Shown: positions 29,260 through 62,701 of the stretch, piece by piece
Numbering within the stretch: position 1 is the stretch's first letter
Layout: the number at the start of each line of letters is the position of its first letter
Assembly (NCBI RefSeq): GCF_030056815.1
Contig: NZ_JASHKR010000004.1
Coordinates: forward strand, 88,014-152,013
Length of the DNA: 64,000 bases
Reading direction: 5' to 3'
From: Rhodococcus sp. IEGM 1379
GTDB lineage: Bacteria > Actinomycetota > Actinomycetes > Mycobacteriales > Mycobacteriaceae
Made by a program: the position numbers and the translations under genes
Notes under the pieces: model-generated
The model's database searches: none
Told to the model about the DNA's origin: nothing
The model's input: only the letters and a program-made list of their open reading frames with translations

Positions 29260-30225
29260 TCAGGACGGATATACTCCCAGTTCAGACAGTTCTTGTATCC
29301 GCGCGTAGTACATCTCGACGTCGGCAGGTTTACACGGCGCAGTACCTGGCGTCTGCAGCATTGCGGCCCCCGCCGCAACACCGAACTGCACCGCTTCCAC
29401 CAGGGAACGCTCATGCACGAGCGAATACACAATGCCCGCAACCATGCTGTCACCGGCGCCGACTCCACTGATCACCGCAACATCCACTGACGGGACGTAC
29501 TCGCAGATGTCAGCGGCGACCACCAGCGCGCCGTCGGCACCGAGCGAGACGACCACCACCTCGGACACGCCTTGTTCGACGATGCTTCTCGCCGCAGCGA
29601 CTTGTTCCACGCTCGTCTCGAGAGGCCTGTCGACCCATTCACGGAGTTCTCGAATACTCGGCTTGACGAGGTAGACGCCTCGCCGCAAAGCACCCAGCGC
29701 GCCGCCGGAGGTGTCGACAACCAGCAACGCATCGGTGTCTGTAAGCAGATCAGCGAGACGCTGACAGAAATCGGCGCCGACTCCCGGTGGCAGGCTGCCA
29801 CTCACGACGACAAAGCGGGATCCGGTTGCGAATTCGCGCACACGCGCGAGACACGAATCCACCTCTGCATCGGTCAGCGTCGGCCCCGGCAGAACAAAAC
29901 GGTACTGCTGACCCGTCGAGATGTCGTCGACGGTGAAACTCTCGCGGGTGGAACCGGAAATCGGCTGGGGAGAAAACCTCACTTGTTCACCGTTGAGCAG
30001 ATCCGCTATCGCCCGTCCGCAGTGACCGCCCGACGGAAAGACCGCTGTCGCGTCTTCCCCGAGCGAGTGCAGAACTCGGGCGACGTTCAATCCGCCGCCT
30101 CCGGGGTCTCGACGGGGAGCAGTGCAGCGCACCTTGTCCGTGGCACGCACCGCGGGCGCACTTGTCGAGATATCGAGCGCCGGATTCATCGTCACCGTCA
30201 CGACACGAGAACTATTCTGCGACAT
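29260..30225 (-). CDS. pfkB: PfkB-family phosphofructokinase (1-phosphofructokinase/Pfk-2 type)
   Basis: A 321-residue sugar kinase of the ribokinase fold: VTVTMNPALDISTSA near the start, the substrate-binding DPGGGGLNVARVLHSLG and the catalytic GVGAGDSMVAGIVYSL anion hole with its Asp. This fits the FruK/Pfk-2/tagatose-6-phosphate kinase group that phosphorylates fructose phosphates at the expense of ATP. Rv2029c, a PfkB-type kinase, is in the mycobacterial DosR regulon, consistent with the surrounding genes. It overlaps the upstream GNAT gene by 14 bp. Confidence 0.9.
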   Translation of the reverse strand: MSQNSSRVVTVTMNPALDISTSAPAVRATDKVRCTAPRRDPGGGGLNVARVLHSLGEDATAVFPSGGHCGRAIADLLNGEQVRFSPQPISGSTRESFTVDDISTGQQYRFVLPGPTLTDAEVDSCLARVREFATGSRFVVVSGSLPPGVGADFCQRLADLLTDTDALLVVDTSGGALGALRRGVYLVKPSIRELREWVDRPLETSVEQVAAARSIVEQGVSEVVVVSLGADGALVVAADICEYVPSVDVAVISGVGAGDSMVAGIVYSLVHERSLVEAVQFGVAAGAAMLQTPGTAPCKPADVEMYYARIQELSELGVYPS

Positions 30226-30712
30226 GCAGTTTCACCTCAAGGTGAAGTGTGGATCCGTCACGACGGAGTGAATGTGCCCAGCCTCGTTCCCGAATGACTT
30301 GAAGCATGGGTGCGTTCTCCCCCATCACCTCGGCCACCATGCGTCGCGCACCGTATCGGTAAGCCTGAGTCTCGAGCCGATCCAAGATCAAGGTACCGAT
30401 TCCGTGCAACCGCTCGTCCTGCGCGACTACGAGGGCGAACTCCACTGTGGTCGGTGAAACCCCGTCCAACAGGACGAAGCTTCCGACACCCACCAATTCA
30501 TCGCCGATGAACGCGCCCAGAGCGCATCGCCGATCATTGCACTCGCACAACTGATCGGAAAAGGCGATGAGCTGTTTCGGCTGCGGCCCGAACCACCGCA
30601 TATACGAATCATGCTGGTCGAGACGCGCATGTAACCGTTGCACCTCACCGGCGTCATGTGCGCCGAGGCACCGAACTGTTGTCGTGCCGATTCCGCTGCC
30701 CGTCACGGCCAT
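30212..30712 (-). CDS. GNAT-family N-acetyltransferase
   Basis: A 166-residue acetyltransferase: VEFALVVAQDERLHGIGTLI is the acetyl-CoA-binding motif A, RLETQAYRYGARRMVAEVMGENAPMLQVI the motif B region and the end RERGWAHSLRRDG completes the fold. It most resembles the GNAT module found in the Pat lysine acetyltransferases of actinobacteria, though here it stands alone with no cyclic-nucleotide domain. Fourteen bases overlap with pfkB indicate coupled expression. It is divergent from the hydrogenase operon; the 172-bp region between them carries the 32-bp repeat. Confidence 0.85.
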   Translation of the reverse strand: MAVTGSGIGTTTVRCLGAHDAGEVQRLHARLDQHDSYMRWFGPQPKQLIAFSDQLCECNDRRCALGAFIGDELVGVGSFVLLDGVSPTTVEFALVVAQDERLHGIGTLILDRLETQAYRYGARRMVAEVMGENAPMLQVIRERGWAHSLRRDGSTLHLEVKLHVAE

Positions 30713-30785
30713 CGATCATCACCTGATTCGGCTGGAGGGTTACCTCCCGATTGAACCGTGGAATTGCCTGCAGTGGGCAGAGCCT

Positions 30786-30817
30786 TTTGTCATCGAATAT
30801 CGTCCTTCGCCTCTACC
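30786..30817 (+). repeat. 32-bp promoter-region repeat, copy 1 (hydrogenase side)
   Basis: The bases TTTGTCATCGAATAT followed by CGTCCTTCGCCTCTACC recur at 51256-51287 with a single difference (T here, A there, at the 15th base). Here the repeat lies 67-99 bp upstream of the first hydrogenase gene and downstream of the divergent GNAT start. Conservation across 32 bp between two unrelated genes in the same orientation points to a shared operator or promoter, not to coding sequence. Confidence 0.85.
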
Positions 30818-30884
30818 CCCGCCGGCAGCTCGCGCGCGAAGCTGGATCGTGGAGGAATACGGATGTCGCCCGCAAGGAGGATCC

Positions 30885-32039
30885 ATGACCGGTGCCGGAC
30901 TACCCACCGACCTCACGCGCGATCACGTTGTCATAGACCGAGGCGGGCTCGACAATCTGATCTCGGTGTTGTGTGCGGAGGGCTATCGCGTCATCGGACC
31001 GACGGTCCGTGACAGCGCGATCGTCCTGGACACTCTCGAGTCCGGTGACCAATTGCCGGCGGGATGGGGTGTGGAGACCGGCCCAGGCCGGTATCGACTG
31101 CGGAAGAGAACAGATTCTGCCGTCTTCGGTCACTCCGCCGGACCGCAATCCTGGAAGCAGTACCTCCACCCATCGCGTCAACAACTCTGGAGCGAATCCA
31201 GGGACGGCACATTCCACGCGCCGCCGACCGAACCCGTGAAATACGCATTTCTCGGCGTACGTGCGTGCGACCTCGCAGCGATCGGAATACTCGAGACGGT
31301 GCTCTCGGCCGGCGGAAAGTCTGCGACAAGTCTTTTCGAAAATCTGTTCGTGATCGCAGCCAACTGCACGGAACCCGGCGGGGTGTGTTTCTGTGCGTCG
31401 ATGAATACCGGCCCGGAGGCAAAAACCGGGTACGACCTTTGTCTGACCGAAAGAATCGACAACGACGGCCACCGATTCGTCACCGCGGTGGGCACCGCGG
31501 AAGGATCCCGGATACTCGCACTCGTCCGTCGCAGACAAGCGACGGACGAGGAAACTGCCGAGGCCGCCCACGCTGTTGCCGAAGCAGCACACCACATGGG
31601 CCGCGAAATGCCTGATGTCGATCTTCGCCGCATGCTCCGCGACGCACGGGACGCCGATGTCTGGGAAGACGTCGCATCACGGTGCTTGACGTGCGGAAAC
31701 TGCACGATGGTGTGCCCGACGTGCTTCTGCACAACTACCGAGGACGTCTCCGATCTCACGGGCGACAATGTCGAGCGCTGGCAACACTGGTCGTCATGTT
31801 TCGACCTGGACTACTCACAATTGCACGGCGGCGCGGTGCGCGTCAGTGGTGAAAGCCGGTATCGACAGTGGATTACTCACAAGCTGGGCACCTGGCACGA
31901 CCAATTCGGCTCGTCCGGCTGCGTCGGTTGCGGTCGATGCATCGACTGGTGTCCGGTGGGCATCGACATCACGGCGGAAGCGGCCCGTCTGACTGGTGCC
32001 TTGAATGTGGAACCCGAGCGCGATGCTGGTGGTCACTGA
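30885..32039 (+). CDS. hyhB: [NiFe] hydrogenase group 3b iron-sulfur subunit (HyhB-like)
   Basis: A 384-residue electron-transfer subunit. The N-terminal part ([31 protein letters not shown]) is the sulfhydrogenase-beta/AsrA-like domain; the C-terminal third has two 4Fe-4S cysteine sets, [16 protein letters not shown] and [16 protein letters not shown]. Together with HyhG it passes electrons between the hydrogenase active site and NADP(H). AAGGAGG lies five bases before the ATG. The next gene starts inside the stop codon (TGATG). Group 3b enzymes are cytosolic and bidirectional and in mycobacteria are induced under low oxygen. Confidence 0.9.
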
Positions 32040-32503
32040 TGAACGATCACGCCGGCGAGCACTGTCCGGGAGAAATCGAAGGTCTGACCGACGATCAACG
32101 GCACAAGCTCGCGGCTATCTCGCGCGAGGTCACGTTCGCGGCAGGTACCGTGGTGTTCCGCGAAGGCGACTCCGCTGACAGATGTTGGTTTCTTCGAACT
32201 GGCCGGATTGCGCTCACCACAAGGATTCCCGGACGCGGCGAGGAAACAATCGAAACACTTTCTGTCGGTGAAATTCTGGGCGTGTCCTGGTTTCACCCAC
32301 CTCGACAGTGGCAGTGGACAGCAACTGCGGCCACTCCCGTGACAGCAGTCGAGATCGATGCCACGGTGCTGCAGTCCGTCGCCGAGAGCGATCCGGACCT
32401 CGGACGGGCGATCTACTCGATCCTGGCGCACACACTCCTCCACCGATTGCAGGCTACGCGCGCACGCCTGCTCGATCTCTATGCACGCGAACATGTTCGG
32501 TGA
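32039..32503 (+). CDS. Cyclic-nucleotide-binding-domain protein without DNA-binding domain
   Basis: A 154-residue protein made of a single cNMP-binding beta roll: VTFAAGTVVFREGDSADRCW FLR..GRIALTT, GEILGVSWFHPPRQWQW and the end of the C-helix (LLHRLQATRARLLDLYA). Crp/Fnr proteins would continue for about 80 residues with a winged helix; here the gene stops. It is embedded between hyhB and hyhG, overlapping both, which points to a structural or allosteric part of the hydrogenase complex rather than a transcription factor. It could also gate the complex by nucleotide or redox state; neither can be read from sequence. Confidence 0.82.
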   Translation: MNDHAGEHCPGEIEGLTDDQRHKLAAISREVTFAAGTVVFREGDSADRCWFLRTGRIALTTRIPGRGEETIETLSVGEILGVSWFHPPRQWQWTATAATPVTAVEIDATVLQSVAESDPDLGRAIYSILAHTLLHRLQATRARLLDLYAREHVR

Positions 32504-33317
32504 TCGACTCGTCCCGACGCCGTGCACGGTTGTTGCCCGCCGAGACGAGAACAGCGATACCTCGACCCTGACCCTCGCCGCACCTGCGCAGTGGTATCCC
32601 GGGTTCCGCCCCGGCCAGTTCATGATGGTCTATGCGCGGGGGGTGGGCGAGATTCCACTGTCGATCAGTGGAGACCCGACTCACGCCGATCATACTGTGG
32701 TCCATACCGTTCGGGCTGTCGGTTCCGTCAGCCGCGCGCTGCACGAAGCCTCGGTCGGAGACGTCGTCGGTGTGCGAGGGCCTTTCGGAACGGGATGGGA
32801 TCTGGATTCCGCGAAGGACGATCTGGTCGTCGTCGCGGGAGGGGTCGGCTTGGCGGCAGTACGTTCCGCAGTCCTGGAGGCGCAGGCCTGCGGCCGATTT
32901 CGTCGAGTTGTCCTGAGCGTGGGTGCTCGCCGACCGTCCGATCTCCTCTACCGCCCAGATCTCGACGCGTGGAGCCAGGGAGACCTGGTCGACCTCGAGT
33001 TATCCGTCGACGTGGCGGAACCTGACTGGCAGGGCCATGTCGGCTTTGTCACGCAGTCCCTGAACCGCCTCGTTCTCGAGCCCGGACGTACAACGGTACT
33101 GCTGTGCGGTCCCGAGCCGATGATGCGGATGTCGGCTCGTACCATGATCGGCAAAGGCGTTGGGCGCGAGAATATTCGAGTCTCGCTGGAACGGAACATG
33201 CAGTGTGGGACTGGGCTGTGCGGGCATTGCCAACTCGGCGAACTTCTACTCTGCCGTGACGGTCCGGTAGTCGACTATTTCGTGGCCGAGCCCCTCCTCG
33301 CAGTGAAGGAGTTGTGA
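32493..33317 (+). CDS. hyhG: Hydrogenase FAD/NAD(P)-binding subunit with 2Fe-2S site (HyhG-like)
   Basis: A 274-residue ferredoxin-reductase-type subunit. FAD-binding [23 protein letters not shown](P)-binding [18 protein letters not shown], the [14 protein letters not shown] loop and a C-terminal cysteine set [17 protein letters not shown] for a 2Fe-2S cluster. It connects hydrogen oxidation with NADP(H). ATG 32493 aligns best with related subunits; ATG 32481 is possible, and either start overlaps the cNMP-domain gene. Its stop overlaps the start of the small subunit gene (TGATG). Confidence 0.9.
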
Positions 33318-34084
33318 TGAGCACACCCACCATGGCGGTCTGGAAGTTCGCATCCTGCGACGGATGCCAGCTGACGCTGCTCGACTGTGAGGACGAATTA
33401 CTCACTTTGACCGACGCCGTTCACATCTCACATTTCCTCGAGATGTCGAGCGCTGTGGAAAGTGGGCCCTACGACCTCTCTCTGGTCGAGGGATCGATCA
33501 CCACTGCGGCCGATGTCGAACGCATACACATGATCCGGGACAACTCACGGTACCTGGTGACGATCGGCGCCTGTGCGACTTCTGGTGGGATACAGGCCCT
33601 CCGAAACTTCGCGGACATCACCGAGTTCATGTCCGTGGTCTATGCGAGCCCCGAGTACATCGATACTCTCGCGACGTCCACACCGATCGCCGCCCATGTC
33701 CCGGTCGATTTCGAACTACGAGGCTGCCCGATCGATCGTCGACAACTCCTCGAGGTGATCTCGTCGTATCTGGTGGGACGGAAGCCGAACATCCCGGACA
33801 CCAGTGTCTGCGCCGAATGCAAGCGACGTGGTCTCACCTGCGTCATGGTCGCCGACGGCACCCCGTGCCTGGGACCGGTGACCCATTCCGGCTGCGGCGC
33901 ACTGTGTCCCGCGCATTCGAGGGGCTGCTACGGATGTTTCGGCCCGTCGTCCGATCCGAACTTGACCGCAATGTCCGGGTGGCTGCGAACCTGCGGGATG
34001 ACCGACGAGGGTATCGGTCGGGTCTTCTCGACGTTCAACGTCGCCTCCCCCGAGTTCGACGGGATCAGGCGAGATGGACAGTGA
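33317..34084 (+). CDS. hyhS: [NiFe] hydrogenase group 3b small subunit
   Basis: A 255-residue small subunit holding the iron-sulfur relay. The proximal cluster ligands are in [13 protein letters not shown], with IGACATSGG and [10 protein letters not shown]; the medial and distal clusters in [11 protein letters not shown] and [20 protein letters not shown]. There is no twin-arginine signal, so the enzyme is cytosolic, as expected for group 3. AAGGAG lies six bases before ATG 33317, which overlaps the hyhG stop. The end overlaps the large-subunit start by 11 bp. Confidence 0.93.
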
Positions 34085-35366
34085 AACCACCCGGCTTACG
34101 CTGGGTTCCCTCGCCCGTGTCGAAGGGGAAGGCCGTCTGGCATTCACGGTCAGACACGGCCGAGTCGAATCCGCAGAGTTGAATATCTACGAACCCCCAC
34201 GGTTCTTCGAATCATTTCTCCGGGGACGCGATTTCCGCGAGCCTCCCGACATTACCTCCAGGATTTGCGGAATCTGTCCTGTCGCTTATCAAGTCAGCGC
34301 TTGCAACGCAATCGAGCAGGCCTGCGGCACACACCTCACACAACCGATTCTCGATCTGCGACGACTCCTCTATTGCGGCGAGTGGATCGCCAGTCACACA
34401 CTGCATATCTACCTGCTGCATGCGCCTGATTTCCTGGGCGCCGCCGACGCCATCGAACTGGCCCGAATCGCGCGTCCCGACGTCGAACGTGGGCTCGCAT
34501 TGAAGAAGGCGGGAAACGCGATACTCGAACTGATCGGTGGCCGATCGATTCACCCGGTCAACGTCCGACTCGGCGGGTTCTATCGAGCGCCGACGCCGAG
34601 TGAACTCGAACCCCTCGCCGAACAATTGCGCACAGCGCTCGACGACGCTCTCGCGACCGTGCGCTGGGTATCGCACTTCGAGTTCCCCGATACCGAGATC
34701 GATTCCGAACTACTCGCACTAGCGCAGCCGGGCCGCTACGCGATCGAAGACGGCATGCTGACAACCACATCCGGATTGTCCTTCACACCCGAGGAATTCT
34801 CCGATCACGTCGAGGAACGTCAGGTTCCCTATTCGACCGCACTGCATGCACATCTCGACGGCCAGGCCTATCTCGCCGGGCCGCTGGCGCGATACAGCCT
34901 CCACTCCGCCGAACTGTCGGACATCGCTCGTCAAGCGGCGACCGAGGCAGGCCTGGGAACAGTGTGCCGCAACCCGTTTCAGAGCATTGTGGTGCGTGCC
35001 GTCGAAACAGTATTTGCCGTGGACGAGGCGCTACGCCTGATACGCGAGTACCAACGCCCCGATCGGCCGTTTGTCGACACCTCGCCCCGTGCCGCAACGG
35101 GATACGGCGTCAGTGAAGCCCCGCGAGGCATGCTGTACCACCGCTACGAACTCGATTCCGAGGGCCACATCCTGCGCGCGACAATCATTCCGCCCACCTC
35201 ACAGAACCAGGCAGCAATCGAAATCGACCTCCGCAACACCCTTGCAGCGAACCTGAGACTGACAGACACCGAGTTGGCAGCACTGTGCGAGCGGACCATC
35301 CGGAACTACGACCCCTGCATCTCGTGTGCCACTCATTTCCTCGACCTGACAGTCGACCGCGGATGA
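34074..35366 (+). CDS. hyhL: [NiFe] hydrogenase group 3b large subunit
   Basis: A 430-residue catalytic subunit with all four nickel-binding cysteines: L1 motif [10 protein letters not shown] (Cys65, Cys68) and L2 motif DPCISCATH (Cys415, Cys418, with His421). After His421 follow nine residues (FLDLTVDRG), the C-terminal extension removed by the maturation protease encoded next. It reversibly oxidises H2; with the partner subunits it can dispose of reductant as H2 or scavenge H2. The other nickel-iron maturation genes (hypABCDEF) are not in the window, so they must be elsewhere or shared with another hydrogenase. Confidence 0.95.
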
Positions 35367-35845
35367 CTGTCACGGTGGTCGGGACCGGGAACGAATTCCG
35401 CCGAGACGACGGCATCGGACCTGTTGTGGCGCAGACGATACAACGCATGCACCCGGCCGGCGTAGACGTGGCGATCGATAGCGGGGAGGCTTCGACACTG
35501 CTCGATACGTGGGCAGGCTCGGATCTGGTGATCATCGTCGACGCTGTAGTCGGCACTACTTCTGCCGGTAGCCCGGCGCAACCCGGGACGATCCGTCGGA
35601 TCACGGATTGGTCGAGTGAGAACTCCGGAAAACTCACCAACTCACATGGACTGGGCATCATGGAGGCGCTGGCCTTGGCCGCCGCACTCGGCCGAGAACC
35701 CCACCGCGTGGTGATCTACACGATCGAAGCGCACGACACCGGCTACGGCATCGGGCTTTCACCATCCGTTGCAGCTTCCGTCCCCGCGGTCGTGTCCGCG
35801 GCCGTGGCCGATATCACCAAACATACGAGTTCACGGCAACTCTGA
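35363..35845 (+). CDS. Hydrogenase maturation protease (HycI/HybD family)
   Basis: A 160-residue endopeptidase that clips the C-terminal extension of the large subunit once nickel is inserted. Typical parts are [19 protein letters not shown] (nickel-sensing Glu and Asp), VIIVDAVVG with the second Asp and [13 protein letters not shown] with the His. The ATG overlaps the large-subunit stop (ATGA), so protease and substrate are translated together. It converges with the V-ATPase subunit D gene, nine bases away. Confidence 0.9.
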
Positions 35846-35854
35846 CGAATCTCG

Positions 35855-36472
35855 TCACGTGTGAAGCGTTCCTGCAGCCCAGCGCAGGCCTACAGCTTCG
35901 GTTCGGTCTTGTTCTTCCAGTGCGAGTTCCAGATCGGACAGCGCACCCTCGAGCAAGGGAATCCAACGTTCGGTAATCGCTCGAAGCCGGCGACGCGTCG
36001 ACAACTCTTCGGCCTGCACCACCCGCAGAGCCGCGTCGGCGGCCGCATGTCGCACGGCAGCAGCAACCGCGTCTCGATACGCATTCGTAGCCAGAACAAT
36101 CGCTGTATTGCCGGGCGGTGGAAGGGTTTCCGCGCGGTCACCGATCATGAAATTCACCTCTTCGGGAACTCGAACGCCCATCAACCATTCCCAGATCACC
36201 TCGACGTCTGCCGGACGGCCGGTGCTTGCGAGTCTCACGGCTCGCTGCCCGCCGAGCAATTCACCGCGCAGCAGCCAGACATCGGCACCGCGACACGCCG
36301 ATTCCCACTGCTGGGCTGTACGCTCGGCACGTTGGCGGCACTCGTCGAGTCGCGTGTGCAGAATGCGCAACTTGCGATCCAACAGGACAGCGCCGTGCCC
36401 GGCCACCCCCAGCCGATGCCGAAGCCACAGCCGCCCGGCCCGCCCCGGAGGCATCCCGTGAAGTCGAGTCAC
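35855..36472 (-). CDS. V/A-type ATPase subunit D (central stalk)
   Basis: A 205-residue, largely alpha-helical coiled-coil subunit that forms the rotating shaft in the A3B3 head. Seen: GRAGRLWLRHRLGVAGHGAVLLDRK at the N-terminal helix and TRRRLRAITERWIPLLEGALSDLELALEEQDR at the C-terminal helix, matching V-type subunit D length and pattern. The ATG overlaps the subunit B stop. It is the last gene of the operon. Confidence 0.85.
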   Translation of the reverse strand: MTRLHGMPPGRAGRLWLRHRLGVAGHGAVLLDRKLRILHTRLDECRQRAERTAQQWESACRGADVWLLRGELLGGQRAVRLASTGRPADVEVIWEWLMGVRVPEEVNFMIGDRAETLPPPGNTAIVLATNAYRDAVAAAVRHAAADAALRVVQAEELSTRRRLRAITERWIPLLEGALSDLELALEEQDRTEAVGLRWAAGTLHT

Positions 36473-37944
36473 CTGCCCTCACTCCGCTCGACCGTGCCTG
36501 AATAACCCTCACTCCGCTCGACCGTGCCTGAATAACCCTCACTCCGCTCGACCGTATCGTCGTAATAGGTATCGAGCAGATCATTCGCCATCATGGTCAA
36601 CTCCCGGCGTGGCAGTACGGCCAACGCCTCCCAACATCGGTCGAGGGTGTCGTCGAGCGAACGTGCCTCGTCAGGTCTCTGATTCAGCAGGTGTTGCTCC
36701 ACTCGATCGGCAAACACGAGGTAGTCGTGGTCCGTTCCACGCAATGCCTCCTCACCCACGAGATCGGCGAATTCGCGTGCCTGACGAGCCCGAGACAGGG
36801 ACGCGATTGTCTGTGCCGCCAAGTCGAGGTGGTCGGCACGTGTCTGTCCGGGGCCGGCGCCCTTACGCATGAGCCGAGACAACGAACTCAACACGTCCAA
36901 CGGGGGATAAACACCCGCCGCGTGAAGCTCCGGGGAGAGGACCACTTGACCCTCGGTGATGTATCCGGTGAGGTCGGGCACGGGGTGCGTGATGTCCCCT
37001 CCCGGCATCGTGAGAACGGGCAGGACGGTGACCGAACCCGGCAACCCACGGATTCGACCGCAACGCTCGTACAGTGACGCGAGGTCGCTGTACAGATAGC
37101 TCGGATACGCACGGCGACCCGGGATCTCGCCGCGCGCGGCCGAGACTTCTCGCAGAGCTTCGGCATACGCCGTCATATCCGCCATGACAACGAGCACATG
37201 GCGCCCCACCTCGAACGCCAGATGCTCGGCGACGGTCAGAGCGAGTCTCGGAGTCAAGATCCTCTCGACTACCGGATCGTCTGCGGTGTTCAGGAACAGG
37301 ACGAGTTCGCCTGCGGCAGATCGCTCGTCGAGCGCATCGCGGACGCTTGCCGCATCGGGATGCGTCAGCCCCATGCCCGCGAACACAACACAGAAAGCCG
37401 CATCCCCTACTGTCGCCTGCGCGGCCACCTGGGTTGCGAGCGCGAGATGTGGCAAGCCTGGAGCCGAGAACACGGGCAACTTTTGCCCCCGCACCAACGT
37501 GGTGAGCGCGTCGATACCCGAGACACCGGTGAGTACCGGTTCGTTGGGTGACGCACGGTGTATCGGATTGAGCGGGTATCCGGACACCGGTGCGCGGCGA
37601 TCAGCGCTCACCGGGGGTCCCCCGTCGATCGGCTCACCGCGCCCGTTGCACACCCGACCGAGCCAGTCGGTCCCCACGGGAATGTGCAGCGACTCCCCCG
37701 CGAAGATGACGCGTGTGCCTTCAGGGCTCATTCCCTCGGTCCCCTCGTGTACCTGCACGACTGCGAGATCCCCGTTCACTTCGAGAACGAGCCCGTGACG
37801 AATCTCGCCGTTGCCGAGGGAGATCCGCACTGACTCGTCCCAACCGACACCACTGACGTCCCGAACCACCAGAAGTGGGCCGCGTAGTTCTGTGACGTTC
37901 GAGTACTCGACAGCACCGAAACGTGTCTCCCCTGAAGCACTCAC
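36469..37944 (-). CDS. V/A-type ATPase subunit B with repeat tail
   Basis: A 491-residue non-catalytic nucleotide-site subunit. Typical segments: RGPLLVVRDVSGVGWDE, VGTDWLGRVCNGRGEPIDGG, YPSYLYSDLASLYERCGRI and VLTMPGGDITHPVPDLTGYI. The C-terminus is unusual: after TYYDDTVERSEGYSG the decapeptide TVERSEGYSG repeats, ending TVERSEGR, encoded by a 30-bp direct repeat. The GTG start at 37944 overlaps the subunit A stop as GTGA; the longer frame to 38016 is not conserved. Confidence 0.93.
   Translation of the reverse strand: MSASGETRFGAVEYSNVTELRGPLLVVRDVSGVGWDESVRISLGNGEIRHGLVLEVNGDLAVVQVHEGTEGMSPEGTRVIFAGESLHIPVGTDWLGRVCNGRGEPIDGGPPVSADRRAPVSGYPLNPIHRASPNEPVLTGVSGIDALTTLVRGQKLPVFSAPGLPHLALATQVAAQATVGDAAFCVVFAGMGLTHPDAASVRDALDERSAAGELVLFLNTADDPVVERILTPRLALTVAEHLAFEVGRHVLVVMADMTAYAEALREVSAARGEIPGRRAYPSYLYSDLASLYERCGRIRGLPGSVTVLPVLTMPGGDITHPVPDLTGYITEGQVVLSPELHAAGVYPPLDVLSSLSRLMRKGAGPGQTRADHLDLAAQTIASLSRARQAREFADLVGEEALRGTDHDYLVFADRVEQHLLNQRPDEARSLDDTLDRCWEALAVLPRRELTMMANDLLDTYYDDTVERSEGYSGTVERSEGYSGTVERSEGR
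36481..36555 (-). repeat. 30-bp tandem repeat in the subunit B tail (2.5 copies)
   Basis: The unit ACTCCGCTCGACCGTGCCTG plus AATAACCCTC occurs exactly twice (36481-36510, 36511-36540), followed by a half unit ACTCCGCTCGACCGT. The unit is a multiple of three, so each copy adds ten residues (TVERSEGYSG on the minus strand). Copies are identical, which suggests recent slippage or expansion. Confidence 0.95.
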
Positions 37945-39665
37945 GGGAGTTCGCCCAGCCGCGCAAGCATGATCTGCTGATGTCCTCGGACTCCCTCGGC
38001 GTCGTCGGACGCACACTCCTGTGCGGAACGGATGAGAGGACCGAAGTCCGCATCACCGATCACGGCCGCCGAAACCCCCGCTGTGACCAACTCCGAACAC
38101 CGCTCGACAACCACCAGAACCGCATCGACCAGCGCCGCCCCCTTCTCTGCCGAGCAGAACGCGTCATTCGCACTCAATGCGTTCTGCTGCAACACCGATT
38201 CGCGCAAAAGTCGCCCGGCAAGGATGGCAATACGCTCCGCGTCGGGCAGCGACTCCACGCCGACCAGTTCGGCCAGACTGGTGAGCCTGTCGGACTCGGC
38301 CAGCATCGCGGTGATTCGCGCGCGCCGACGACCCCAGTCGGGATCACCGCGACGACTGTGCCACAGCCCGAGCGCCTTTGAGTCGAGCGAGAACGACACC
38401 GCCCACGTCACCGCCGGATAGTGACGCGCGTAGGCCAAGTCGCGATCGAGCGTCCACAGGCAACGCACAAATCGCTGAGTATGCGCCGTCACCGGTTCGG
38501 TCATGTCACCGCCGGACGGCGACACTGCACCGATGATGGTGACGGACCCACGGCGACCACCCAGGGTAACCACGAGGCCCGCTCGCGCGTAGAAGTCTGC
38601 CAGTGCGGATGCCAGCCCGGCCGGGTATCCCTCTTCGACCGGGAGAGCCCCTGTCCGCGAGGAGAACTCACGCAACGCCTCGGCCCAGCGGGATGTCGAA
38701 TCAGCAATGACGACGACGTGATACCCCATGTCACGGAAGTACTCGGCCACCGTGACCCCGGTGTGAATACTGGCCTCACGGGCCATCATCGGCATGTTCG
38801 AGGTGTTCGCGATGACTACGGTTCGCCTGGTCAGCTTGTCTCCGGTACGGGGGTCCTCGAGTGCTTCGAGATCGTCGACGACATCAGCCATCTCGTTGCC
38901 ACGTTCGCCGCAACCGACGTAGACGATGACGTCGGCGTCGCACCACTTCGCTATCTGTTGGAGCAGCACGGTCTTCCCGGTCCCGAAACCGCCAGGCACC
39001 GCCGCGGTACCGCCACGCGCAACGGGAACGAGTAGGTCGAGGACGCGCTGACCGGTATGCAACCCTTCGACGTCGTCGATTCGCAGGCGAAAGGGACGGA
39101 CCCGACGAACGGGCCACGTGGTGACCATCGTGATGTCGACGCCGCCCACGCTCGCGATAACCTCGTCCTCCGGATACGTTCCGGCGGCGATGATCTCGGC
39201 GAGTCCGTGCACCCCCGGCGGCACGAGTACCCGCAGTGGTAACGCATCTTCTCCCCCGACAACGCCGATTTCGTCACCCGATTTCAGGCTCGTCCCCGAA
39301 CTGGCCGACGGTGTGAACGACCAACAGTGTTCCGTATCGCGCACCTGCCGCTCTCCCCCGGGCACGAGCCAGGTTCCGGCGTCGGTCAACGGCCGAAGCA
39401 GGCCGTCGAAAATTCCGCCGAGCAGACCCGGCCCCAACCTGGCCGACAGCGGCGCTCCCTCTGCCACCACGGAAGCACCCGGAGCCAGCCCGCCAGTGTC
39501 CTCGTACGCCTGGATCGTGATGCGCCCATTAGTGATCGAGACGATCTCACCCCGCACTCGACGCTCGCCCAGCGCAACGACGTCGAACATCGACACGTTC
39601 GAGAGGTCCTCTACTTCGACCAATGATCCGGAAACCCGAGTGACCCGAGCGCTCACGGTTCCCAC
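37941..39665 (-). CDS. V/A-type ATPase catalytic subunit A
   Basis: A 574-residue catalytic subunit. N-terminal barrel [20 protein letters not shown], the V-type bulge region, the P-loop [19 protein letters not shown], the catalytic glutamate region [15 protein letters not shown] and [20 protein letters not shown] with [23 protein letters not shown] are all present. The active site therefore appears intact. Its start overlaps the end of subunit E by 13 bp. Gene order and content show a genuine rotary V/A-type enzyme, separate from the housekeeping F-type ATP synthase expected elsewhere in the genome. Confidence 0.95.
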
Positions 39666-40177
39666 AACCCGGCGATCCGCGCATCGAGCCGCTCGACTGC
39701 ATAATCGGCGAGCGCCTCGAGAGAGAGCACCGCGCGGTGTCCCCGAGTCTGTGCGACGACGCCTCCGGAGAAGTGCTCCAGTACCGTTGCATCGGGTCCG
39801 AGGAGTTCTCGGGCGCGGCGATCCAGTACCGCGCGCATGTTCGGGTAGTCAATGTCATCGATCAGTGCCACGACAGCGGCTCGGACGCGGGTGCGCAGAT
39901 CCTCCTCCACTTCTCGTTGTGCGTTCAAGACGATGCTGCGCGCTTCCCGCCGCGCCCGCCCGCGTTCGGCGCCGAGGATCTCTTCGGCATCCGCTTCGCC
40001 GCGCGCCCTGGCCTCGGCTCGGCTATCGTCCGCTTGCATCTGCGCCAGTGCGAGCGTCGCTGCGGCATCCGAACGTGCTTGCTTTACAAGTCGATCCGCG
40101 TCGCGGCGGGCGTTGGCCAGCAATTCTGCTCTCACGGGCCCGAGAGCATCGGCCACCCGACTCGAAACCTCGGTCAT
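39653..40177 (-). CDS. V/A-type ATPase subunit E (peripheral stalk)
   Basis: A 174-residue alanine/arginine/glutamate-rich protein. The N-terminal two-thirds is one long helix (DRLVKQARSDAAATLALAQM and RARREARSIVLNAQREVEED), the C-terminal part a small globular head contacting subunit B (EHFSGGVVAQTRGHRAVLS). This is the architecture of the subunit E stator. It overlaps subunits F and A by a few bases on either side. Confidence 0.82.
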   Translation of the reverse strand: MTEVSSRVADALGPVRAELLANARRDADRLVKQARSDAAATLALAQMQADDSRAEARARGEADAEEILGAERGRARREARSIVLNAQREVEEDLRTRVRAAVVALIDDIDYPNMRAVLDRRARELLGPDATVLEHFSGGVVAQTRGHRAVLSLEALADYAVERLDARIAGLWEP

Positions 40178-40395
40178 GCTGGAATCACCACCATGAGGTG
40201 TTGCAGCGAGGCGCTGCGTTCCGGCCCGAGAGCCGCGGCGACGCGTGCTGTCACGATGACCACTGCCACGTCGTCACCCAATTCGTCCCACACGGCACGA
40301 ACGGTGTCGTCGTCTTCTGCAGGCATCACCACGGCTCCACCGAGCGCGAAGCCCTGTATGTCTGCGAGCTCACCCAGCGCAACGACCCTGTCCAT
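40174..40395 (-). CDS. V/A-type ATPase subunit F
   Basis: A 73-residue Rossmann-like protein: ALGELADIQGFALGGAVVM, a short acidic helix and VAVVIVTARVAAALGPERSA ending HLMVVIPA. This is the compact domain of V-type subunit F, which sits in the rotor next to D; it is shorter than the usual ~100 residues because the mobile C-terminal helix is missing. ATG 40395 follows the K stop closely; the end overlaps subunit E in ATGA. Confidence 0.78.
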   Translation of the reverse strand: MDRVVALGELADIQGFALGGAVVMPAEDDDTVRAVWDELGDDVAVVIVTARVAAALGPERSASLQHLMVVIPA

Positions 40396-40402
40396 CTGAC
40401 CG

Positions 40403-42212
<1,810 letters not shown>

Positions 42213-42234
42213 GCGCCTCGGCTCCCCACCGATG

Positions 42235-43197
42235 TCACGCCACCCCATCGAATGCCTCTGTCACCGTTTCGTATTCGCGAACCACACCGGCACCACCTCC
42301 GCGCGCTGCAGATTCGAGTGCTGCGCGCACGCGCCACGCATCAGCAGCCAAGACCGCCAGCACACCCACAACCGGCGGACGGGAGAATTCGGATCGACGC
42401 ATGAGTTCGAAACCGTCACTTTCGATCCGCTGCCACCACCTACTCTCCGCACGCCACAAGTCCGTAGGTTCATCAACATCACGCAGCACCCATTGCGTGT
42501 CTCTCGGCAGACGGGAAGACAGTCCCGACACGGTCGTGGATCGAGCTGTCGCCGATACGAATTCCGACCCGAGAATTCGAGATGCGCGATAAGCGAGGGG
42601 CTTGGGAAAATCGCGAGTTCCCAGTACGGATTCCCGAACCACTAGCAGCGCCGACGCCGCCCGCGCCCATCCGGCGGCCTCGGGAATGAGCGCAGCAACT
42701 CGATCTGCCCACGCCAACCTAATACCGACTTCAATCCCCCACGCCGTCTCACCGCCGATGTCCTTCCAGCGAGACGTACTGAGCGCCAATCGAATGCCCT
42801 TCGGCGAGGAGGCTCCGGCCAGCCGAGACCACGCCGTATCGAGCGCACCCAAACTGTATGTCGGGCCTTCCATCTCGCCGCCGATGCCATACAGACGTTC
42901 ATCGATATTGGCAATTTCGAATCCCCGGGCAAGGAGACGAAGAGCATGCACACCCGCGCTGGGCAACCAGCCGGCGAGCACTCGCAGGTGCCACAGAAGT
43001 GTTGCCCCGACACGGTGTTGTGCTTCCCCGAGCGTGTCGCCGACTCGAACATCATGTCCGTACGGCGTCGAGGCCAGAACGGACAGTGCCGCAGGAAGAT
43101 CGGGACACAGCGCAAGATCGTGTGCGCCGGCCGCGCCGAGACGCCTCCGGGCGAGCGCGCGGGCCCGAACCGTACCCGCCACCCACGACGCACTCAC
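42235..43197 (-). CDS. V/A-type ATPase subunit C
   Basis: A 320-residue soluble subunit, about the normal length, that sits as a socket on the membrane rotor ring and holds subunits D and F. Seen: VAGTVRARALARRRLGAAGA, LLARGFEIANIDERLYGI, WGIEVGIRLAWADRVAAL and the C-terminal FELMRRSEFSRPPVVGVLAVL, which match the three-lobed subunit C/d family (N-x-x-L..R repeated helical layout). The start overlaps the end of the G/H gene by four bases. Confidence 0.8.
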   Translation of the reverse strand: MSASWVAGTVRARALARRRLGAAGAHDLALCPDLPAALSVLASTPYGHDVRVGDTLGEAQHRVGATLLWHLRVLAGWLPSAGVHALRLLARGFEIANIDERLYGIGGEMEGPTYSLGALDTAWSRLAGASSPKGIRLALSTSRWKDIGGETAWGIEVGIRLAWADRVAALIPEAAGWARAASALLVVRESVLGTRDFPKPLAYRASRILGSEFVSATARSTTVSGLSSRLPRDTQWVLRDVDEPTDLWRAESRWWQRIESDGFELMRRSEFSRPPVVGVLAVLAADAWRVRAALESAARGGGAGVVREYETVTEAFDGVA

Positions 43198-43628
43198 GAA
43201 TGCGCCCCCTTCAACACATTTCGAGCTAGGTCAAGGGCTCTATCGACGTATGCCGGAAGTCGATCCGCAGCTCGACTCCGCACCGCAGCCGCGTCCAGCT
43301 CCGCCGCAGCCAATGCTGCCTGGGACACCTGCTGTGCCCGTTCTCCGGCACTTGCCATCGCAGCGGCACGTACATCCTCGAGTTCGTTCCCGGCTGATTC
43401 GACGAGGACATGCGCCTTTTCCTTTGCTTCACAACGGATTTGATCTGCATCGAAACTAGCCTGTTCACGAATTCGGCGAGCATGCGCCACAACACCGGAA
43501 AGCTCACCGAAAACGGGTTCAAGCTCCGCCGCGAGTTCCAAAGGCCGATCGGCCGGTACACCCACAGCGGCCGCTGCGCCGGGGGCACCCGCAGGCCGGA
43601 AGCGCTCGAGAAAGTTGTCGAACCTCAA
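43194..43628 (-). CDS. V/A-type ATPase peripheral-stalk subunit G/H-like
   Basis: A 144-residue, alanine-rich protein that is almost wholly helical from residue 40 onward (VVAHARRIREQASFDADQIR, EDVRAAAMASAGERAQQVSQ). It lies first in the operon, where subunit G/H belongs, and such right-handed coiled coils pair with subunit E. The assignment is from position and heptad-like pattern, because these subunits share little sequence. The operon promoter must lie in the 194-bp gap to the divergent kdp genes. Confidence 0.65.
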   Translation of the reverse strand: MRFDNFLERFRPAGAPGAAAAVGVPADRPLELAAELEPVFGELSGVVAHARRIREQASFDADQIRCEAKEKAHVLVESAGNELEDVRAAAMASAGERAQQVSQAALAAAELDAAAVRSRAADRLPAYVDRALDLARNVLKGAHS

Positions 43629-43759
43629 CGCCGAGCACCTCCCGGAATTGTCTGCGATCTATCCATACTCGCAATGTCTGAGTCAATTGGGAAGGACGAT
43701 CGGGCAGGACGGCGGTTCCCTAAAGCGTTGGTGAAGGTGCACGATGGGAAGTGGCACCC

Positions 43760-43788
43760 AAAACCCTCGAGGTGGGCGCGAGGGTTTT
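43760..43788 (+). terminator. Hairpin with T tract in the kdp leader (attenuator candidate)
   Basis: AAAACCCTCG and CGAGGGTTTT form a perfect 10-bp stem around a 9-base loop, with the 3' arm ending in four T. It lies 35-63 bp upstream of the first kdp-operon reading frame. No gene ends here: the V-ATPase operon leaves to the left and kdp to the right, so a normal terminator has no customer. It is best read as a leader terminator that can stop kdp transcription, although a relic or a boundary for antisense transcripts is possible. Confidence 0.6.
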
Positions 43789-43822
43789 CGTGAATCCTCA
43801 CAGCCTCCGACAAGGAGCAAAA

Positions 43823-43906
43823 ATGCCTGTTCTAGCGTTCGTTGTACTGACGGTGATGATCTTCGTCGTGCTGGTCTTGGTGCAACGAGCGGTGGAGCGA
43901 TTGTGA
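43823..43906 (+). CDS. 27-residue single-helix peptide preceding kdpF
   Basis: [20 protein letters not shown] followed by QRAVERL. AAGGAG lies five bases before the ATG. The product is a single hydrophobic helix with a positively charged C-terminus, so it should insert with its C-terminus inside. The stop codon overlaps the kdpF GTG start as GTGA. It is not KdpF itself, which follows, but is probably another small subunit-like stabiliser of the pump or a leader peptide for coupling. I recall similar unassigned peptides ahead of actinobacterial kdpF genes but cannot name a family. Confidence 0.65.
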
Positions 43907-43992
43907 GCATCTCCAACGTCGTCGGCCTGATACTCGCGGTGTCGCTTGCCTGCTTCCTGATCGTCGCGCTTCTCTTCCCAGAGAGGTTCTAG
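43903..43992 (+). CDS. kdpF: KdpF, small subunit of the high-affinity K+ pump
   Basis: A 29-residue single-pass protein reading [20 protein letters not shown] then ALLFPERF. The [23 protein letters not shown] pattern is the recognised KdpF signature; it stabilises the KdpABC complex in lipid. The start is GTG 43903, overlapping the stop of the preceding peptide. The TAG stop shares a G with the GTG start of kdpA at 43992. Confidence 0.88.
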
Positions 43993-45662
43993 TGTCGACC
44001 GCGACCTCCGGGATCCTGTTCGCGGCATCCCTTGTGCTCGCGTTGGCGCTGGTACACGTACCGCTGGGCGATTACATGTACCGGGTGTACAGCGGGACAA
44101 AGCATTCCCGCGTGGAACGAGGAATCTACCGTGCGATCGGTGCCGACCCTGACCGTGAGCAAGCCTGGCCGGTCTATACCCGCAGCGTGCTGGCGTTTTC
44201 GGCAGTGAGCATTCTCTTCCTGTTCGGACTTCAGTTGGTACAACAGCATCTGCCACTGCATCTGCCTGATCCGGCCACCGAGATGACGCCGTCACTGGCG
44301 TGGAACACCGCTGTCAGCTTCGTGACGAACACGAACTGGCAGGCATATTCGGGCGAATCCACGATGGGGCACGTGGTCCAGATGGCCGGTCTCGGAGTTC
44401 AGAACTTCATGTCGGCAGCGGTGGGCATTGCTGTGGCGATGGCACTTGTTCGCGGATTTGCCCGCAAACGCACCGGCGAACTCGGAAATTTCTGGGTAGA
44501 TCTGATCCGCGGCACCCTGCGCATCCTGCTCCCGATCGCCGTGATTGCCTCCATAGTGCTGATCGCCGGCGGCGTCATCCAGAACTTCCACCTCGGCACC
44601 GAGGTCGTCAATCCCCTCAGTGGCACCGCACAGACCATCACCGGCGGACCGGTGGCCAGCCAAGAAGCAATAAAGTTGTTGGGCACCAACGGCGGTGGAT
44701 TCTACAACGCAAATTCTGCCCACCCCTTCGAGAATCCGACCGCCTGGACGAACTGGGTCGAGGTCGTCCTGATGCTGGCGATAAGCTTCTCGCTGCCACG
44801 AACCTTCGGCCGGATGGTGGGCAGCAAAAAGCAGGGGTACGCGATTGCCGCGGTGATGGCCACCTTGTCCATCGTGAGCGTCACCATCATGAACCTTGTC
44901 CAACTACAGCACCATGGATCGGTACCCACGGCGGTCGGAGCGTCGATGGAGGGCGTGGAACAGCGGTTCGGCGTCGCCGATTCGGCGGCTTTCGCAACGT
45001 CGACGACATTGACCTCCACCGGCGCCACCAGTTCGGCCCACGATTCGTACACCAGCCTGGGCGGATTGATGGCGATGTTCAACATGCAACTCGGCGAGGT
45101 CGCACCGGGCGGCGCAGGCTCTGGCCTGTACGGGATGCTCATCCTCGCCGTCATCACCGTCTTCATAGCCGGGCTCATGGTCGGCCGCACCCCGGAGTAC
45201 CTCGACAAGAAGATCACAGCACGCGAAATCAAACTTGCTGCGTCCTATTTTCTGGTCACCCCTCTCATCGTCCTGGTCGGAACTGCCACTGCCAGCGCGT
45301 TTCCGGCCCAACGTGCGGCCATGCTCAACACAGGGCCGCACGGCCTGTCCGAAGTCCTCTACGCGTTCACATCGGCAGCCAACAACAACGGCTCCGCCTT
45401 CGCCGGACTGTCCGCAAATACCTTGTGGTACAACACCGCTCTCGGAATCGCAATGGTGTTCGGCCGGTTCCTGCCGATCATCCTCGTGCTGGCACTGGCC
45501 GGTTCACTTGCCAGGCAAGGCACCATTCCGAAATCGATAGGCACCCTGCCGACACACCGACCACAGTTCATCGGCATGGTCGTCGTCGTCACCCTGATCC
45601 TGGTCGCGCTCACCTTCCTCCCCGCGCTTGCACTCGGACCCCTGGCGGAAGGGATCCACTGA
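43992..45662 (+). CDS. kdpA: Potassium-transporting ATPase subunit KdpA
   Basis: A 556-residue membrane protein with ten predicted helices and four pore-loop repeats that select K+: [55 protein letters not shown] and [16 protein letters not shown] carry the selectivity-filter glycines. Length is normal. GTG start overlaps the kdpF stop; the kdpB ATG overlaps its TGA. This is the K+-binding part of a P-type pump used at low external K+. Confidence 0.96.
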
Positions 45663-47812
45663 TGTCCACAACGACGATTCCGGAGTACTCCGGTCCATCG
45701 AAACCACCGAACCCGGCCAGTCGGGTGCGCAGTGGTGTCGTGGATCCGAAAATGATGGTTAAAGCACTGCCCGACGCGGTACGCAAGCTCGACCCGCGCA
45801 CTCTCTGGCGCAATCCCGTGATGTTCATCGTCGAGATCGGAGCAATCTGGAGCACAGTTCTGGCCGTCACGGATTCAACGTGGTTTGCCTGGTCGATTGT
45901 CTTCTGGCTCTGGCTGACGGTGATTTTCGCCAACCTCGCCGAGGCTGTTGCCGAAGGCCGAGGGAAGGCTCAAGCAGACACTCTCCGCCGTGCCAAAACC
46001 GACATGATCGCGCGCCGCCTGAAGAATTGGCGTCCCGGAGCTGCCGTCACCGAAGAGCAAGTGCCCGCGCCGCAACTCCAGCAAGGTGACGTCGTGCTCG
46101 TGACAGCGGGGCAGACCATTCCCGGCGACGGAGATGTCGTGGAAGGCATTGCATCCGTGGATGAGTCGGCGATCACCGGTGAATCCGCCCCGGTGATTCG
46201 CGAATCGGGAGGCGACCGATCCGCAGTTACGGGCGGCACTCAAGTGCTCTCGGATCGTGTCGTCGTCAAGATCACTCAGAAGCCTGGTGAGAGCTTCATC
46301 GACCGGATGATCGGGCTCGTCGAAGGTGCGAACCGGCAGAAGACACCGAACGAGATCGCCCTCAATATCCTGCTGGCAGCATTGACAATTATCTTTATTT
46401 TCGCAGTGGCTACCTTGCAGCCTCTGGCCATCTATTCCAAAGCCAACAATCCCGGCGTTCCCGACACGTCAGCCTTGGACACAAACGGTGTCACCGGCAT
46501 CGTCATGGTGTCACTGCTGGTCTGTTTGATCCCGACCACGATCGGGGCCCTGCTTTCAGCTATCGGCATCGCCGGAATGGACCGCCTGGTGCAACGAAAT
46601 GTCTTGGCGATGTCGGGACGTGCGGTCGAGGCGGCCGGCGATGTCAACACTCTGTTATTGGACAAGACCGGCACCATCACGCTGGGCAACAGGCAGGCCT
46701 CACAGTTCTTTCCGGTGTCGGGAGTGACCGAAAACGAACTTGCCGATGCGGCGCAGCTTTCGAGCCTCTCGGACGAAACCCCGGAGGGGCGATCGATCGT
46801 GGTGTACGCCAAGTCTGCGTACGGGCTGCGCGAACGCAGTCCAGGCGAACTCGCACAGGCGAATTGGGTCGCATTCACCGCACAGACACGGATGTCTGGT
46901 GTCGATCTCGCCGACGGGCGCCAACTGCGGAAGGGGGCTGCTGCTGCGGTTGCGGGTTGGGTCCGTCGCCTCGGCGGCGAGGTTCCTGCGCACCTCGGCG
47001 AGCTCACCGATGGTATTTCCGCGGCCGGTGGAACACCGCTGGTCGTCGGCGAGGTCAAGGACGGTCGGGCTGCGGTACTGGGCGCCATCTACCTCAAGGA
47101 CATCGTCAAGCGGGGCATGCGGGAGAGGTTCGACGAGATGCGCCGGATGGGTATCCGCACTGTGATGATCACCGGCGACAACCCGCTGACAGCGAAAGCA
47201 ATTGCCGAGGAAGCCGGCGTCGACGACTTCTTGGCCGAGGCAACACCCGAGGACAAACTGGCGCTCATCCGACGTGAACAGGGTGACGGCAAGCTTGTCG
47301 CGATGACGGGTGACGGCACCAACGATGCGCCTGCATTGGCGCAAGCCGACGTAGGTGTGGCCATGAACACCGGAACCTCAGCGGCAAAAGAAGCCGGCAA
47401 CATGGTGGATCTGGACTCCGATCCGACCAAGCTCATCGAGATCGTGAAGATCGGTAAGCAGCTGCTCATCACGCGCGGCGCTCTGACGACGTTCTCGATC
47501 GCCAACGACATCGCCAAGTACTTCGCCATCATTCCGGCCCTGTTCGTGACCATGTTCCCCGGACTCGACCGACTCAACATCATGCGGTTGCACAGTCCTC
47601 AATCGGCGATCCTGTCGGCCGTCATCTTCAACGCCATCATCATCGTCGCTCTGATCCCGTTGTCACTGCGAGGTGTGAAATACCGACCGAGCAGCGCCGC
47701 ACAACTACTGAGCCGCAACCTGTACATCTACGGCCTCGGTGGAGTCATCGCCCCGTTCGTGGGGATCAAGCTCCTCGACCTGATCGTCCGATTCCTCCCT
47801 GGGATGTCATGA
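45662..47812 (+). CDS. kdpB: Potassium-transporting ATPase ATP-binding subunit KdpB
   Basis: A 716-residue P-type ATPase that energises KdpA. Phosphorylation motif [17 protein letters not shown] (Asp), the TGES motif [15 protein letters not shown], and the hinge motif [20 protein letters not shown] are intact. The frame is open far upstream inside kdpA, but the overlap of ATG 45662 with the kdpA stop and the conserved N-terminus ([20 protein letters not shown]) fix the start. Confidence 0.96.
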
Positions 47813-47813
47813 C

Positions 47814-48752: not shown

Positions 48753-48778
48753 AGGAACACAACACACGCAGGAGACGA

Positions 48779-51253: not shown

Positions 51254-51255
51254 CC

Positions 51256-51287
51256 TTTGTCATCGAATAACGTCCTTCGCCTCTACC
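51256..51287 (+). repeat. 32-bp promoter-region repeat, copy 2 (ANTAR side)
   Basis: Second copy of the element at 30786-30817, same orientation relative to the next gene, 31 of 32 bases identical. It begins two bases after the kdpD stop codon and lies 69-100 bp before the ANTAR-like gene, a distance almost the same as in the hydrogenase promoter. It indicates that the genes from 51.3 kb onward have their own promoter and are not simply the kdp tail. Confidence 0.85.
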
Positions 51288-51355
51288 TGACAACCGTTGA
51301 CCCGAGAAAGCTGAAACCACAGCACTTCCGAAGACTGCGTCAAGAAGGAATATGC

Positions 51356-51613
51356 ATGTGTCCACTGGTATCCAGCGAAAGCGAAGCCGTGGCGACCGCA
51401 CAACGAATCTTGGTCGCCAAGCGCAAATTCGACGAGCGACAGGCCTTCGACGAGCGACAGGCCATCGACGAGCCAATGGACATTGCCCGGCGTCGTCATG
51501 TGTCGGTTGTGTCGGCGGCTCGACAACTGATCAAGGCGGCACAGGGAACGACGGTGACACCCCCGACCACACCCCCGACCGAGTTGACAAGTAAACCTCC
51601 ACAGTCGAATTGA
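51356..51613 (+). CDS. Small ANTAR-like protein with an internal duplication
   Basis: An 85-residue basic protein. AVATAQRILVAKRKFDERQA and RRRHVSVVSAARQLIKAA resemble the three-helix ANTAR RNA-binding domain (A-x-G-I-L-M-x-R ... A-x-x-L). Between these helices an exact 18-bp tandem repeat (51428-51445 and 51446-51463, TTCGACGAGCGACAGGCC) duplicates FDERQA. The C-terminus is Thr/Pro-rich. ATG 51356 has AAGGA six bases upstream. ANTAR proteins act as RNA antiterminators; the call is tentative because the domain is short. Confidence 0.5.
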   Translation: MCPLVSSESEAVATAQRILVAKRKFDERQAFDERQAIDEPMDIARRRHVSVVSAARQLIKAAQGTTVTPPTTPPTELTSKPPQSN

Positions 51614-51926: not shown

Positions 51927-51987
51927 TCACTTCTCGAGACGCAGGTGACCTGAATTCGAGATGGCGGTGTCGAACAAGGAGATAGCG

Positions 51988-60292: not shown

Positions 60293-62628
<2,336 letters not shown>

Positions 62629-62701
62629 CAAGACGTCCATTCTCCACGCAGGTAGACAAGAATACCCACACTCCACGACTACCCATCGGCGAACGAACCA
62701 A

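Follow-up and report, generated by a model that had tools for sequence, protein, structure and literature searches.

A near-identical sequence precedes two operons

Why should two operons of Rhodococcus sp. IEGM 1379 be preceded by almost the same 32 bases? Within the 64,000-nucleotide stretch of DNA analyzed here (the window), positions 30786–30817 and 51256–51287 match at 31 of 32 bases, with a single T/A difference at the 15th base, and have the same orientation. The two copies lie 67 bases from the start codon of a hydrogenase gene (30885) and 68 bases from that of an ANTAR-like gene (51356), as a first-pass annotation of the sequence had reported. We propose that the repeat most probably comprises two binding sites for DevR (DosR), a regulator that responds to low oxygen, ahead of hydrogen- and storage-related genes. 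The genes that this proposal concerns are:

29260–30225, minus strand: PfkB kinase, after the GNAT gene (Pfam)
30212–30712, minus strand: divergent GNAT acetyltransferase (Pfam)
30885–32039, plus strand: first gene of the [NiFe]-hydrogenase operon, 4Fe-4S protein (Pfam Fer4_22)
32039–35845, plus strand: remaining hydrogenase operon, encoding a cyclic-nucleotide-binding-domain protein, NAD/FAD subunit, small subunit, large subunit and HycI protease (Pfam, gene calls)
51356–51613, plus strand: ANTAR-like small protein, 85 aa (Pfam ANTAR E 0.0024, 18 bits, under the curated cut-off of 27.3)
51648–51926, plus strand: Rv2632c-like/DUF1876 protein (Pfam PF08962, E 2.2e-31)
51988–53358, plus strand: wax ester synthase/diacylglycerol acyltransferase (WS/DGAT; gene call, with Pfam WS_DGAT_cat on the longer frame 51961–53358)
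60293–61984, minus strand: DevS/DosS-type sensor kinase (Pfam GAF, HisKA_3, HATPase)
61981–62640, minus strand: response regulator DevR/DosR, which we propose reads the boxes (match to M. tuberculosis DevR, 3c3w, at E 1.6e-98)

The window holds a dormancy (Dos) type cluster that includes the hydrogenase operon, a PEP-utilising enzyme, WS/DGAT enzymes, nitroreductase-family proteins, the DUF1876 protein and the DevR/DevS pair. A P-type ATPase with a C-terminal hemerythrin domain (55088–57430) is encoded beside these Dos-type genes, and the cyclic-nucleotide-binding-domain protein (32039–32503) is encoded within the hydrogenase operon.

The 32-base match is a truncated view of an element of ~40 bp that extends ~10 bases further to the left. 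A repeat search lengthens the match to 44 nucleotides at 91% identity (30774–30817 and 51244–51287, 40 of 44). No match to the 32-mer with up to three mismatches occurs in 100 dinucleotide shuffles of the window. The genome search that the annotation had recommended, run with up to three mismatches over 6,136,602 bases in 230 contigs, identified exactly the two known places (backward control, 0), and the 21-base core at the same tolerance identified the same two places alone.

Relatives carry counterparts of both copies in Dos-type clusters

The annotation had also held that a lack of further copies before genes would count against its proposal; this genome contains no more of them at up to three mismatches, but copies do precede genes in its relatives, and the proposal stands. 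We searched 401 genomes of the family and identified matches in 11 genomes at 15 places, all inside Dos-type clusters (backward control, 0). Together with G003_hyd, G003_2 and G013_2, which carry 4–5 substitutions, these places make up an 18-copy alignment.

The element also precedes the hydrogenase operon in the relatives G003, G013, G016 and G022. A diverged copy lies directly behind hycI in the same four genomes, before DUF1876 and WS/DGAT genes; an ANTAR-like gene is called between this copy and the DUF1876 and WS/DGAT genes in G016 and G022, and none is called in G003 or G013. The genes served by the two copies had been described as unrelated. Their context in these four relatives shows instead neighbouring operons of one Dos-type cluster.

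In the window, hycI and the second element are separated by a 15.4-kb block (35855–51253), which is missing at this position in the four relatives. The block consists of a V/A-type ATP synthase operon (35855–43628, minus strand) followed by kdp genes, among them kdpA, kdpB, kdpC and kdpD (43751–51253, plus strand). The 3′ end of an ATP synthase alpha/beta-family gene contains three head-to-tail 30-nucleotide units (36476–36565). The KdpD-like protein (48779–51253) matches the Pfam families KdpD, Usp, DUF4118 and HATPase_c, with no HisKA family matched at E 0.001.

Forms near GTCMYCGACTACGGTCCTTCGCCTCTA are present at similar junctions in the genus genomes G004, G005, G006, G008, G010 and G017 and, according to the search, in one genome from another genus of the family (G130). 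Of the 18 core sequences, 16 are intergenic; the remaining two belong to the second copies of G022 and G003, which overlap the hycI frame at its 3′ end. Placement at random coding positions, which the annotation had held to count against its proposal, was checked in the copies, and the DevR reading withstands this check.

The near-identity of the two copies could also have arisen if a short tract was copied between the promoters, by duplication or gene conversion, in addition to or in place of selection at each site. This explanation is compatible with a role for DevR, and we consider it unlikely. Over 32 bases the second copy indeed shares more with the hydrogenase copy (31 matches) than with its G013 counterpart (26 by a count made by eye). 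Over 47 bases, however, it shares 39 with the hydrogenase copy and 39 with the G013 counterpart, and a comparison across species, between G000_hyd (G000 being the window’s genome) and G016_ant, gives 38 over 47. The flanks of the two copies are unrelated. Moreover, four relatives have counterparts of both sites, and both are therefore old.

The element contains paired DosR-type boxes

Searches with preset motifs did not suffice: a version of the M. tuberculosis 20-mer consensus has no match in the window at up to three mismatches, and GGGACNNNNGTCCC at up to one mismatch has 3 matches in the window, compared with 4.7 expected by chance. We therefore learned the motif from relatives. An unsupervised EM motif search with random seeds, covering 159 intergenic regions of non-convergent type drawn from the window, from its flanks and from 17 stretches of relatives, identified a DosR-type palindrome, cAGGG.C.WW.G.CCCTg. 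Its log-likelihood was 201.6 in palindromic form and 290.1 in free form, compared with 23.8, 32.5 and 26.4 in three shuffles. The motif precedes genes in 51 of the 159 regions at a score of at least 11 bits. The resulting full matrix, which includes the element in its training, also recognizes published M. tuberculosis boxes (hspX probe, 15.7 and 14.3 bits; fdxA, 15.6 bits) and assigns 18.8 bits to a DosR EMSA oligonucleotide.

To avoid circularity, we retrained the model on the 141 regions without the element (log-likelihood 161.5, compared with 23.9–25.4 shuffled). This leave-out matrix still detects both boxes in most copies, with means over the 18 copies of 8.3 bits for box 1 and 6.3 bits for box 2, and its median box levels are reached by ~0.02% and ~0.05% of window positions. 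Half-sites are nonetheless frequently weak, and some copies fall short at one box: box 2 scores −3.6 bits in G022_ant and G016_ant, and box 1 scores −1.8 bits in G004 and 0.8 bits in G003_2. The full matrix underlies the 11-bit counts, the box spacing and the published-box scores, and the leave-out matrix underlies the 80-locus test described below. Boxes and promoter-like hexamers of the window are located as follows:

30750–30755, minus strand: TTCAAT, −10-like hexamer predicted for the divergent GNAT promoter, with a predicted start at ~30743
30777–30796: DevR/DosR-type box 1 of the hydrogenase-side element (centre 30786.5; 15.6 bits full matrix, 9.4 bits leave-out matrix; 9 of 12 consensus positions)
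30797–30816: DevR/DosR-type box 2, hydrogenase-proximal (centre 30806.5, 20 bp from box 1; 7.3 bits full, 4.7 leave-out; 9 of 12)
30838–30843, plus strand: GAAGCT, −10-like hexamer predicted for the hydrogenase promoter, with a predicted start at ~30850
51247–51266: DevR/DosR-type box 1 of the second element (centre 51256.5; 16.9 bits full, 11.8 leave-out; 9 of 12)
51267–51286: DevR/DosR-type box 2 of the second element (centre 51276.5; 9.4 bits full, 6.3 leave-out; 9 of 12)
51307–51312, plus strand: predicted −10-like hexamer AAAGCT of the second element, predicted start ~51319

Box 1 of the second element overlaps the end of the kdpD frame (48779–51253) with its first 7 bases. Box 2 ends 68 and 69 nucleotides before 30885 and 51356, respectively, and thus within 150 nucleotides of the start codon. 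Each box combines a strong outer half (AGNGNC or GNCTCT) with a weak inner half. The spacing of 20 bp is the commonest in the set, with 10 pairs among 60 primaries; the next is 41 with 4 pairs, and 20 shuffles yielded no pair at 20. A middle register, centred between the boxes (GANTANNGTCC), was dropped, its mean under the leave-out model being −0.4.

DosR/DevR boxes have been predicted in Rhodococcus equi 103S with the consensus NNNGGGHCNWWNGNCCCBNN and a cut-off of 85% (PMC2947987). The window boxes, from the same genus, keep G6 and C8 of this consensus and their mirror bases; G6, C8, G13 and C15, the invariant and mirror bases of the DosR/DevR box, are present in all four. Each window box matches 9 of the 12 specified positions (17 of 20 when N is counted as a match), which is just at the 85% cut-off. 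At 9 of 12, the two elements are the only pairs spaced 20 bp apart in the window, though 20 shuffled windows contained 13 such pairs by chance, or ~0.65 each. Single consensus sites at this level are not enriched in the window (100, compared with a mean of 158.3 in block shuffles), and the strict palindrome with up to one mismatch is not enriched genome-wide (107, compared with 341 in the backward control). A central C-G-A is invariant in 18 of 18 copies, and the box model accounts for only part of it.

DevR-type boxes also occur elsewhere in the window. Two of them (63750–63769, 15.9 bits; 63820–63839, 11.8 bits), with centres 70 bp apart, lie between a nitroreductase-like gene and the next plus-strand gene. 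Another (53402–53421, 14.2 bits) lies 117 nucleotides before a SPFH/Band 7 gene at 53539.

Promoter-like hexamers flank the boxes

Promoter-like hexamers were picked after the alignment had been viewed. An nAnnnT hexamer whose T is base 36 or 37 counted from the box-2 centre is present in 18 of 18 copies, a count that overstates independence because the copies are related by descent. On the box-1 side, a mirrored TTSANT hexamer is present in all 13 copies that have a divergent gene and in none of the 5 that lack one. Among 56 non-redundant box flanks of the training loci, offset 36 accounts for 19 occurrences of nAnnnT, and no other offset for more than 5.

If the T is taken as position −7, the centre of the proximal box falls at ~−43, in the −35 region. 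An overlap of the proximal box with the −35 region has been reported for DevR promoters (PMC3029386). Given the paired boxes and conserved hexamers, we read the element as a putative cooperative two-dimer operator. The element at 30.8 kb looks bidirectional, with predicted starts that would also serve the GNAT and PfkB genes leftward from 30712.

A cluster-encoded DevR is the probable reader

The DevR encoded in the window shares 160 of 210 aligned residues (76%) with M. tuberculosis DevR (3c3w) and keeps D54, K179, K182 and N183. The last three residues are core DNA contacts of DevR (PMC5999986). We identified a DevR homologue at E 1e-60 in 27 of 28 genomes of the genus and a close one (at least 72% identity) in 17 of 28. 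Within the genus, 10 of the 11 genomes that carry the element encode a cluster-type DevR, as do 7 of the 17 that do not (Fisher p 0.016, with no correction for relatedness). The one carrier that does not, G017, has an assembly that is 74% complete. At the sensitivity used, no element copy was found in 7 of the 17 genomes of the genus that encode a close DevR.

The first-pass annotation had suggested a shared promoter or operator, possibly read by DevR. Two boxes 20 bp apart, conserved promoter-like hexamers placed where DosR-activated promoters would have them and a DevR with intact DNA-contact residues in the same cluster lend sequence-based support to this idea. The sequence, the boxes, their spacing, their conservation and the hexamers are seen directly; from them we infer DevR binding, phosphorylation, cooperativity, start sites and induction, and we consider it highly probable that each copy forms the core of an operator at a promoter activated by DevR (DosR).

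A different protein, such as another LuxR-type regulator, a second DevR paralogue or an unknown factor, might read the element instead. A DevR paralogue with 64% identity is encoded at G000:C230, and a DevR box explains the invariant CGA centre only partly. Several observations nonetheless make another reader quite improbable. First, the motif is widespread before genes of these loci, as the 51 of 159 regions at 11 bits indicate. Second, it fits both the published DosR boxes and the consensus. Finally, most element carriers have cluster-type DevR.

ANTAR proteins are RNA-binding antiterminators, and one of the served genes is ANTAR-like, but action of the element as RNA, for example as a leader structure targeted by the ANTAR-like protein, is extremely improbable: Rfam matched nothing in the window at gathering scores, four folds over both copies were no better than shuffles (z +1.50, +0.94, −0.09 and +0.38), and the predicted starts lie downstream of the element, which would thus not be transcribed with these genes.

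DevR-type boxes precede many other hydrogenase loci

The occurrence of boxes was also examined in a largely separate set of hydrogenase loci in named genomes, the best 80 of 205, scored with the leave-out matrix. Three Rhodococcus loci of this set (L090–L092) come from genomes already represented, G022, G013 and G003; the element regions of these genomes are outside the matrix training. A box of at least 7 bits lies within 350 nucleotides upstream in 42 of these best 80 loci, compared with 2 of 80 coding stretches of equal length. By genus, as assigned from record titles, such boxes were found in Mycobacterium in the wide sense (22 of 47), Rhodococcus (5 of 7), Nocardia (5 of 5), Lentzea (4 of 4), Streptomyces (3 of 10) and others (3 of 7). 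No 7-bit box was found at 38 of the best 80 loci, including 2 of the 7 from Rhodococcus.

Second boxes lie 20–23 bp away in 14 of 23 cases from the same best 80 of 205 loci. Their 33 non-redundant flanks contain the A-T pair 9 times at offset 58, 5 times at 57, 6 times at 36 and 3 times at 37, and we tentatively read the peak at 57/58 as distal boxes ~22 bp further up. In 18 hydrogenase loci from the genome search, a set that excludes the partial matches L046–L048, the full matrix, partly trained on these loci, finds a box scoring 11 bits or more within 300 nucleotides at 13, compared with 1 in 15,858 coding positions.

Known Dos systems and proposed mechanism

In M. tuberculosis, tgs1, Rv3131 and Rv1738 are of the WS/DGAT, nitroreductase and DUF1876 types, respectively, all of which the window also contains. 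The tgs1–Rv3131 promoter resembles the hydrogenase-side arrangement in its closely packed DevR boxes, a proximal box overlapping −35 and divergent genes (PMC3029386). Judging from a title cited in the same paper, narK2–Rv1738 is likewise a DosR/DevR-regulated divergent promoter (PMC3029386). The Rhodococcus boxes differ from both in lying 20 bp apart, in their weak inner halves and in serving hydrogenase and ANTAR-led operons.

In M. smegmatis, a hydrogenase cluster near devR/devS rises at low oxygen (PMC2799521). Like the window, this dos cluster (msmeg_3926–3955; hydrogenase msmeg_3931–3927) brings together a hydrogenase operon, a P-type ATPase and a gene related to phosphoenolpyruvate near devR/devS (PMC2799521); unlike it, the Rhodococcus window has the V/A-ATPase and kdp block inserted. 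The M. smegmatis hydrogenase Hyh has been named dos-regulated and is not induced by CO (PMC8125079). The window operon appears to correspond to the M. smegmatis hydrogenase, an assignment made by gene type and setting.

DosR boxes in Rhodococcus (PMC2947987) and the control by dos of an apparently corresponding M. smegmatis hydrogenase (PMC8125079) are thus already in print. In the R. equi 103S paper, the word ‘hydrogenase’ is absent from the main text and the 20-bp tandem architecture is not among the passages available to us (PMC2947987). Among the papers listed in a literature search by titles and abstract openings, with few subscription papers covered, none showed DosR control of a Rhodococcus hydrogenase.

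We propose that the GAF kinase beside DevR would sense low oxygen and that both elements would then be switched on. Phosphorylated DevR dimers would bind the two boxes cooperatively, their centres lying 20 bp, or about two helical turns, apart. Bound DevR would recruit RNA polymerase to a weak −10 element 31–37 bases from the proximal box centre. The element at 30.8 kb would drive the hydrogenase operon one way and the GNAT–PfkB genes the opposite way, and the element at 51.3 kb would drive the ANTAR-like/DUF1876/WS-DGAT group in one direction only.

The CGA centre and the near-perfect 32-mer identity are the least explained feature of the element. Strong selection on two boxes, together with possible short-tract copying, would cover both. 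A bolder proposal, which we hold only tentatively and think rather doubtful, is that the 40-bp element may be a fixed higher-order operator in which an invariant CGA, flanked by half-sites that are strong on the outside and weak on the inside, holds two DevR dimers 20 bp apart. Such an operator would function only as a cooperative unit, forming one bidirectional low-oxygen switch that links hydrogen metabolism to storage-lipid and ANTAR genes in Rhodococcus, and its centre might add a contact absent from ordinary DevR boxes.

These observations point to a compact DevR operator in Rhodococcus that is open to testing. They suggest that the hydrogenase operon and the ANTAR-like/DUF1876/WS-DGAT operon are members of one Dos regulon. 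They also offer a positional rule, with a box centre ~43 bp before the predicted start and paired boxes 20–23 bp apart, by which other actinobacterial Dos promoters may be found.
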